Shown in pieces: positions 39,536 to 41,855 of a DNA stretch of 64,000 nt. Where the stretch lies: positions 558,001 to 622,000 of the forward strand of contig NC_014160.1 in assembly GCF_000092185.1 (NCBI RefSeq), in the 5' to 3' direction. The notes under the pieces are model-generated. The model was not told the origin of the DNA. It saw nothing but the letters and a program-made list of their open reading frames with translations, and made no database searches. The stretch's first letter is position 1; every line of letters begins with the position of its first letter. Both the position numbers and the translations under genes were made by a program. This DNA comes from Thermosphaera aggregans DSM 11486. GTDB taxonomy: Archaea > Thermoproteota > Thermoprotei_A > Sulfolobales > Desulfurococcaceae.

Positions 39536-40522
39536 ATGGACGTGCTCCAATTATTGTTCGCAACCTTAATATTCCCGGGTTTCGTTTTTCTCGTTGCCTT
39601 ATCATTCCTCACACAATACCTTATTAGAAAACTAAGTGCTAGAATGCAAAGGAGAATGGGGCCAAAGTACGTTGGACCCGTTGGAATTCTACAACCGGTT
39701 TACGATTTTCTTAAACTGCTTCAAGCAAAGGAGTTGTTGAAGACCAGATACAGCATGGTTAGGGCGGCGGAAATATCCCTTCTCCTAGGCTTGTCCTCAC
39801 TAATAGCTTCCACGCTCCTCCTGCCACTGAATATCTATAACATTGGAAGCCCCTATGACTTCCTAATATTCTTCTACATGGCAAGTATATGGCCCATATT
39901 GATGATCATATTTGCGTCTCTATCGATGCCGGGGCCATACACGAGTGTCGGCGTCTCAAGACTTCTATCGATACTTACAGTCTCAGAGCCCGCCTTCTTC
40001 ACAGGGCTCTTAGTTCCGGTGGCCCTTGCGTCTTTCAATACTAAAGCCCCCCTCATGATCTCGATAGCGTCTGCAAGGGTTCATGAATTATGGGTTAACC
40101 CGTTGACACTACCAATAATGATACTGGTGACCATATCGCTAATTGTTGCTGTTCAATCAAAACTAATGCTACCCCCATTCAACATTCCAGAGGCCGAGCA
40201 GGAGATAATAGCTGGGTACGAAACGGAGTTCTCGGGGCCACTCCTGGCGCTTGCTATACTGTTTCATGACATGGATACGGTCGTATCAGCATTAGCGATA
40301 GTTTACCTAGTGCTCGGCGGACCCGCACCATTTTCACACTCAAGCATTGAAGGCGCGTTGCTTTTAATTCTAAAATATCTCTTAGTGATTGTTGTAGCAA
40401 CTTATGTTAAGAACGTGTTCGGGAGGTATAGGATAGATCAAGCACTAGTGGCTCTTCTGAAATACGGATTAATGCCTGCTATTGTAGCAGGCATTTTAGG
40501 CACAATCTATCTCTATTTTTAA
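39536..40522 (+). CDS. mbhM: Membrane-bound hydrogenase membrane anchor MbhM (NuoH-like)
   Basis: MbhM is the NuoH-like subunit that connects the NiFe module to the membrane. It has about eight helices, the first loop RMQRRMGPKYVGPVGILQPVYDFLKLL near residues 37-65 and the FNIPEAEQEIIAGYETEFSG motif near residue 220, both conserved in complex I relatives. The ATG at 39536 follows the mbhI stop; an upstream in-frame extension reads into mbhI and is not credible. It is the last gene of the operon here. Confidence 0.92.
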   Translation: MDVLQLLFATLIFPGFVFLVALSFLTQYLIRKLSARMQRRMGPKYVGPVGILQPVYDFLKLLQAKELLKTRYSMVRAAEISLLLGLSSLIASTLLLPLNIYNIGSPYDFLIFFYMASIWPILMIIFASLSMPGPYTSVGVSRLLSILTVSEPAFFTGLLVPVALASFNTKAPLMISIASARVHELWVNPLTLPIMILVTISLIVAVQSKLMLPPFNIPEAEQEIIAGYETEFSGPLLALAILFHDMDTVVSALAIVYLVLGGPAPFSHSSIEGALLLILKYLLVIVVATYVKNVFGRYRIDQALVALLKYGLMPAIVAGILGTIYLYF

Positions 40523-41095
40523 TTAGCCCATGCTTTCTAGCATCGCGGCCCAGAACTTTTTATCTACTATTTCTCCAATAACTATTGCCTTCACCAGCCC
40601 ATTCTTATCTAAAACAAGGGTTTGCGGTACCGCATATGAGTATTGCTCGGGGAGCCCAACCTCATACTCCACTGAAGCGATCTCCACGAACCATGTCAAG
40701 TTTTCACCGGAAACCCATACTGGAAAATATTCTTCTCGAAATTCTGTAGTAAAGAATTCATTCATTTTTTGACAGTGAGGACAGGTTTTGGAGCCGAACA
40801 TTATGAGTTTAACATTAGCTAACCCGTAGGTGCTGTTTACGTTTCCAACTACCTGTTGTATTCGTTGTATCATTGTTTCATTGTTGATCGACTTAACGCA
40901 GTCGCCTCCTATGTAGATTCCGAGAGAGCCTTCTCTGTGCTCGCATCACTTATAATCGTTATTGTTCTCAGCCATTCTGGTCAGAGCTATGTAAGCTCCT
41001 ACCGCTATTAGGGCAAAAACCACTGTGACTAGAATTGGGATGCGATAACCCTTATTTCTCCGTGGCTTAGTTTTATCGATCTTCTTCTTTGACAC
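40523..41095 (-). pseudogene. Membrane-anchored thioredoxin-fold protein gene with an in-frame TGA
   Basis: From the GTG at 41095 (six bases after a ggtg site) the frame runs to 40523 with one internal stop, TGA at 40948-40946 (codon 50). Before it lies a basic tail and a membrane helix (about residues 19-40). After it the same frame continues without break into a linker with GIYIGGDC and a thioredoxin fold with KTCPHCQ and a cis-Pro region (YAVPQTLVLD). An ATG at 40873 could restart translation and give 116 residues without the anchor. The coding pattern on both sides implies one protein of about 190 residues, extracytoplasmic. It is divergent from a CcdA-like gene, a natural partner. Nonsense mutation, sequencing error or recoding are all possible. 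Confidence 0.75.
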
Positions 41096-41103
41096 AGACT
41101 ACA

Positions 41104-41159
41104 CCATCAGCTATGCATAAATTAATTATTTATAATCACGCGTTTTAATATTTAGGTAG
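41104..41159. promoter_or_regulatory. Divergent promoter region between the thioredoxin-like and CcdA-like genes
   Basis: The AT-rich block at about 41118-41135 (aattaattatttataatc) lies about 30-35 bases before both translation starts, so it can serve as TATA element in both directions. This supports joint expression of the redox pair. Confidence 0.4.
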
Positions 41160-41168
41160 TTGGGGAAA

Positions 41169-41855
41169 ATGTTTGAGCAAGATATGCCGTCTCTAATTGT
41201 ATGGGTGGTTACTTCAGCCTTAATAGATTCTATCGATCCCTGTTTCTACGCACTGTACCTGAGCATAATAGCTTCAACCACGCTTTCAAATATCAGGAAC
41301 GTCGTTAAAACTGCTGGGGCTTTTCTTTCAAGCGTTTATCTTGGATACTTGTTGTTCGGATTCCTTTTGAAGAGCCTTGCTTCTCAAGTCTTGATTGAAA
41401 AATGGCAGACTGGAATACTTCTTTTATTATATGGTTTGGCTCTAATCGCTTACACTCATCTCACACGTAATAAAGATGAAAAGGGAGAACTGTGCAAGGA
41501 GGACAAGCTCGAATGTAAAATCATTAATAAGTTAGGTCTAGCGCGCAGGTTTGAAAATCCCTATCTCGTGCTCCTCGGGTTGTTATCCTCCCTCACCATT
41601 CTTCCCTGTAGCGCGGGACTATATATCGTTTACGTAGTGATAACTACAAAATATAACATACTAATCTGGCTACCACTCACCATGCTGTATGTTCTAGTAT
41701 TTATCTCGCCTCTCATACTAATGACGGCAGCACTGGTCGGACTTGCGAGGATAGGAAACATTCTATCCATAATAATGCGTCATGATAGGCTATTTAAAAC
41801 AATAGGAGCCGTTCTCGCTTTAGTAGCCGGCATCTATCTAATACTTGCCCCTTAG
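41169..41855 (+). CDS. CcdA/DsbD-like transmembrane thiol electron carrier
   Basis: The membrane protein has about six helices and the paired cysteines of the CcdA family: one in IDSIDPCFYA near residue 23, the other in TILPCSAGLY near residue 145. The two are expected to form a disulphide that carries electrons from cytoplasmic thioredoxin to an extracytoplasmic thioredoxin-like protein. A charged loop with two more cysteines separates the halves. The start may also be the TTG at 41160. The divergent anchored thioredoxin gene is the likely partner. Confidence 0.83.
   Translation: MFEQDMPSLIVWVVTSALIDSIDPCFYALYLSIIASTTLSNIRNVVKTAGAFLSSVYLGYLLFGFLLKSLASQVLIEKWQTGILLLLYGLALIAYTHLTRNKDEKGELCKEDKLECKIINKLGLARRFENPYLVLLGLLSSLTILPCSAGLYIVYVVITTKYNILIWLPLTMLYVLVFISPLILMTAALVGLARIGNILSIIMRHDRLFKTIGAVLALVAGIYLILAP

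Follow-up and report, generated by a model that had tools for sequence, protein, structure and literature searches.

A probable recent nonsense mutation in the gene for a membrane-anchored thioredoxin-like protein of Thermosphaera aggregans

Examination of 64,000 nucleotides from the genome of the hot-spring archaeon Thermosphaera aggregans DSM 11486 (hereafter the window; the genome forms a single contig of 1,316,595 bp) revealed a gene for a membrane-anchored thioredoxin-like protein (40523-41095, minus strand; 190 codons and a stop) that is interrupted at codon 50 by an in-frame TGA (40948-40946), and a recent TGG-to-TGA nonsense mutation is in our judgement the likely origin of this stop. 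The frame runs from a GTG at 41095 to a TAA at 40525-40523, with residues 1-49 preceding the TGA and residues 51-190 coming after it; the chance of meeting no more than one stop in 190 random codons of the window's base composition is about 0.0003. A first-pass annotation of this DNA had described a single minus-strand frame broken only by this TGA, and both the reading of the open frames and the uninterrupted homologues in congeners bear it out.

Codons 1-49 (40949-41095) specify a basic tail and one predicted membrane helix (residues 15-41), and residues 73-190 (40526-40879) form a thioredoxin-like domain, its CPHC active site occupying residues 105-108. The domain was recognized from homologues and structure prediction, its match to the Pfam Thioredoxin_2 model being weak and below the curated cut-off. 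The structure model comprises the single helix, a low-confidence stretch at residues 39-65 and a thioredoxin-like fold at residues 73-190, which agrees with the earlier description of an anchor before the stop and a thioredoxin fold after it. Codon 50 thus falls in the poorly predicted linker between anchor and redox domain, where there are no conserved residues. Together, the predicted anchor helix and the thioredoxin fold with its CxxC motif point to a membrane-anchored thioredoxin-like protein. The 5' side of the gene is the intergenic region (41096-41159) that separates it from a divergent gene for a CcdA-like membrane protein. It carries an AT-rich, promoter-like stretch that is nearly identical in the sister genome G027, and relative to that genome both this stretch and the start region of the thioredoxin-like gene have been retained. 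The ribosome-binding site claimed earlier stands in a weak form only, as a GGTG 6 nt upstream of the GTG at 41095, where the sister reads GGTGGAG. At its 3' end the interrupted gene abuts a convergent nuoH-like gene at 40522/40523, the two stop codons lying back to back with zero bases between them.

Homologues of the thioredoxin-like protein were matched in 27 of 40 genomes of the family, and only the window's own copy has an internal stop. The nearest relative, G027 (taken as Thermosphaera sp. 3507; 1,305,106 bp), is collinear with the window across 57 kb around the gene, and encodes the whole frame uninterrupted (68% identity) with TGG (Trp) at codon 50; the second congener, G028, likewise has the whole frame uninterrupted (44% identity) with ATA (Ile) at this position. 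The alignment of homologues across codon 50, which the first-pass annotation had proposed as a check, therefore favors a nonsense mutation. That the anchor and the thioredoxin domain might be two separate genes, which would have told against an interrupted gene, was rejected, as they form one frame in the congeners and in the Desulfurococcus-like genomes G001 and G002. In a comparison of 70 ORFs shared between window and sister (about 19,850 aligned codons, the window only), 197 of the 203 sister TGG codons are TGG in the window and exactly one, codon 50, is TGA. The few further in-frame stops in this comparison occur right at the beginning of an ORF that is over-long or short, or belong to a single ORF with two of them, which we take for a non-coding shadow ORF. 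An order-wide search returned matches with stops inside them in four other genomes (G109, G114, G022 and G057). Those in G109 and G114 are the gene's own end, crossed by the match because the halves of the domain are permuted (see below), and in G022 the match starts upstream of a 401-residue open frame that contains the whole domain. No other copy of the TGA allele was found in the viral and genome collections searched, which may omit the window's own genome.

Both sides of the stop bear the marks of coding constraint that had been claimed for them, with pN/pS of 0.33 before it and 0.26 after it. A relative-rate count against G028 assigned 14 replacements uniquely to the window lineage and 16 uniquely to the sister G027. 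Given that both halves are constrained and that the gene shows no acceleration on the window branch, the stop is probably young. Furthermore, every length difference from the sister after the stop (one gain of 9 nt, and losses of 3 nt and 6 nt) is a multiple of three; the frame downstream of the TGA was apparently in use when these changes arose. The constraint, the kept start region and the in-frame indels fit a young nonsense change; they would also fit an error in base calling, although we consider such an error less likely.

An error in base calling or assembly, with a sense codon at codon 50 in the organism itself, would require only a one-base substitution in a gene that is elsewhere intact and constrained. 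However, the T. aggregans M11TL genome paper gives an error rate below 1 in 100,000 after Illumina polishing (PMC3035292), and also reports 23 pseudogenes, about one per 70 genes (PMC3035292). From these rates we calculate that errors would account for no more than about 0.03 stops in the window, versus about 1.1 expected pseudogenes, and we accordingly regard an error as unlikely. The best reading, a recent TGG-to-TGA nonsense mutation, agrees with homologues that are uninterrupted and carry a sense codon at this position. The gene also resembles known prokaryotic pseudogenes made by a single nonsense change, in which one substitution creates a stop in an otherwise intact and constrained gene whose relatives are intact; there is no difference of note, save that decay of the T. 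aggregans gene has not begun. Against this reading stands the same observation, namely that no decay is visible in either the thioredoxin-like gene or its CcdA-like partner. No close paralogue of the thioredoxin-like gene was found in the T. aggregans genome, nor was any PF00085 thioredoxin at an E-value of 0.001, a domain that 13 of 14 control genomes possess. Given the lack of decay and of a close paralogue able to take over, the loss of the anchored thioredoxin function might be costly.

We propose that the gene product would be a membrane-anchored thioredoxin-like protein, probably taking its electrons from the CcdA-like membrane protein encoded by the divergent gene. The single TGG-to-TGA change in the linker would halt translation after 49 residues, and the anchored redox domain would then be lost or greatly reduced. 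Four elements of this proposal are inferred: the presence of the change in the organism itself, its recent origin, the loss of function and the role of the protein in electron transfer.

Part of the protein could be rescued if translation restarted at the ATG at 40873-40871 (codon 75), which lies two residues into the predicted fold and is the one start codon available in frame between the fold and the stop. Nearly the whole domain, CPHC included, would then be made as a soluble product of 116 residues. However, no sequence resembling a ribosome-binding site precedes this ATG, which lies at a 9-nt insertion peculiar to T. aggregans and is AGG in G027 and no start codon in G028. Since the membrane anchor would be lost, such a product would be on the wrong side of the membrane for the CcdA-like partner, and a restart appears improbable.

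A further possibility is that a near-cognate tRNA-Trp sometimes reads the UGA of codon 50; near-cognate reading of UGA would restore Trp, the residue that was lost, and the persisting constraint on the gene is in keeping with this. On the other hand, more ORFs of the window end in TGA than in any other stop codon (31 of 70), and there is no unusual RNA structure downstream of codon 50. A recent review of archaea, moreover, records read-through for selenocysteine and pyrrolysine only (PMC8211752). Local read-through is therefore very improbable, and we give equally little credence to UGA being read as Trp here at a frequency sufficient to maintain the function of the anchored thioredoxin; if true, it would constitute site-specific stop-codon read-through in a crenarchaeon. 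A general code with UGA as Trp was rejected in view of the predominance of TGA as terminator and the single TGA among the 203 aligned sister TGG codons. No UCA, CUA or UUA anticodon was recovered among 43 tRNA sequences (ARAGORN with introns allowed, and loci of the Rfam tRNA model), a set in which a few tRNAs, including that for Trp, went unrecognized.

Selenocysteine might be entertained at codon 50 given that the UGA lies in a thiol redox protein and adjoins a Cys codon, a setting reminiscent of the archaeal selenoproteins of certain methanogens and Lokiarchaeota, which also have an in-frame UGA in a redox protein. In contrast to those, the homologous residue here is Trp or Ile and not Cys, and it lies outside the active site. 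Searches of the T. aggregans genome alongside 14 control genomes yielded no tRNA-Sec over the cut-off (the eight best weak matches read as Ser, Leu, Tyr and Arg tRNAs), no match to SepSecS, and for SelD only weak matches below the cut-off, as in all 14 controls; no Rfam SECIS match was obtained either. Consistent with this, neither a selenium trait nor a SelD-like protein nor aSelB turned up in Desulfurococcales in published surveys (PMC4210487, PMC3037878). A strong hairpin, AATGCCTGCTACAATAGCAGGCATT (z -5.5; 40405-40525, minus strand), lies just past the interrupted gene, within the 3' end of the convergent nuoH-like gene. It is imperfect in G027 and absent from G028, and as a SECIS element or terminator it was set aside, being coding sequence of the convergent gene that is not kept in G028. 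As far as sequence evidence goes, we reject selenocysteine as having next to no chance of being correct, and what might have been a claim of recoding in an archaeal group without known selenoproteins is closed with the site read as a mutated Trp codon. Thus, among the nonsense mutation, sequencing error, restart and recoding that the first-pass annotation had left unranked, the first is favored, the second is possible though less likely, the third is weak and, of the forms of recoding, selenocysteine and a general reassignment of UGA are rejected.

The CcdA-like gene (41160-41855, plus strand) is intact and present as a single copy in the genome. It adjoins the thioredoxin-like gene in both congeners, and lies directly upstream of it on the same strand in G001 and G002. 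Furthermore, 12 genomes of the family encode one-frame fusions of a thioredoxin-like domain with a multi-helix domain bearing an NPC motif, which is CcdA-like (loci L010, L013, L016-L018 and L021-L027). The CcdA-like and NPC-type proteins can be linked, as a CcdA-like profile matches the NPC-type protein of G108 at 2e-20. The CcdA-like protein has predicted helices and DPC and LPC cysteines that are invariant in five genomes, with no Pfam or PDB match and a structure model too poor for use (pLDDT 44). The proposal of the first-pass annotation that the CcdA-like protein partners the anchored thioredoxin is supported by a neighborhood conserved in two genera and by the fusions, the CcdA label itself standing without a family-model match. 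The arrangement is similar to that of CcdA and its anchored partners (of the CcmG/ResA type, and the DsbD C-terminal domain) in having one anchor helix, a CxxC thioredoxin-like domain and a conserved neighbor with two putative membrane cysteines, and the nearest solved structures to the thioredoxin-like domain include CcmG and the DsbD C-terminal domain. It differs in that the Pfam thioredoxin matches are below cut-off, the structural scores are modest, the CcdA-like protein is unmatched, and the T. aggregans thioredoxin copy is interrupted by a stop. By analogy, we infer that the pair may pass electrons across the membrane.

Comparison across the order also uncovered five genomes of one genus (G108, taken as Ignisphaera aggregans, 1,875,953 bp; G109; G114; G115; G116) in which the halves of the thioredoxin domain are swapped. 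In these proteins the anchor is followed by the half with the cis-Pro (VPHIVVV...IGE...FW), then by the CPHC half and the stop (L098:1164-1697 and L104:1123-1683, plus strand; L099:1393-1947, L100:1333-1884 and L101:1079-1630, minus strand). Both halves align by BLAST to normal-order proteins in the opposite order, with E-values of 4e-14 to 7e-5, and the sequences identify the swapped order as a circular permutation of the thioredoxin domain. It occurs in two layouts, which differ in the place of a short N-module: in G109 and G114 this module (IPVYLG or VPLYLG) has remained next after the anchor, whereas G115 and G116 have it between the swapped halves, as does G108, though less clearly. Four congeners (G110, G112, G117 and G118) retain the normal order, the five permuted genomes yielded no copy in normal order, and a search of the order with a permuted profile gave full-length matches in those five only. 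All five retain a CcdA-like gene, located apart from the permuted one; in G116 (L110, G116:C12:17060-17737) the match to it contains a TAA, which may simply be the end of the gene. Circular permutation is known among thioredoxin-like folds (PMC3091736); in the literature searched we found no published account of a CxxC thioredoxin becoming permuted within a genus, and to a specialist these swapped domains are a more surprising result than the stop.

Together, the comparisons revealed a pairing of thioredoxin-like and CcdA-like proteins across the family, fused forms included. If the nonsense mutation is real, the sequenced type strain would possess an intact CcdA-like protein alongside a broken thioredoxin partner, a point of consequence for annotation and for research on the strain.
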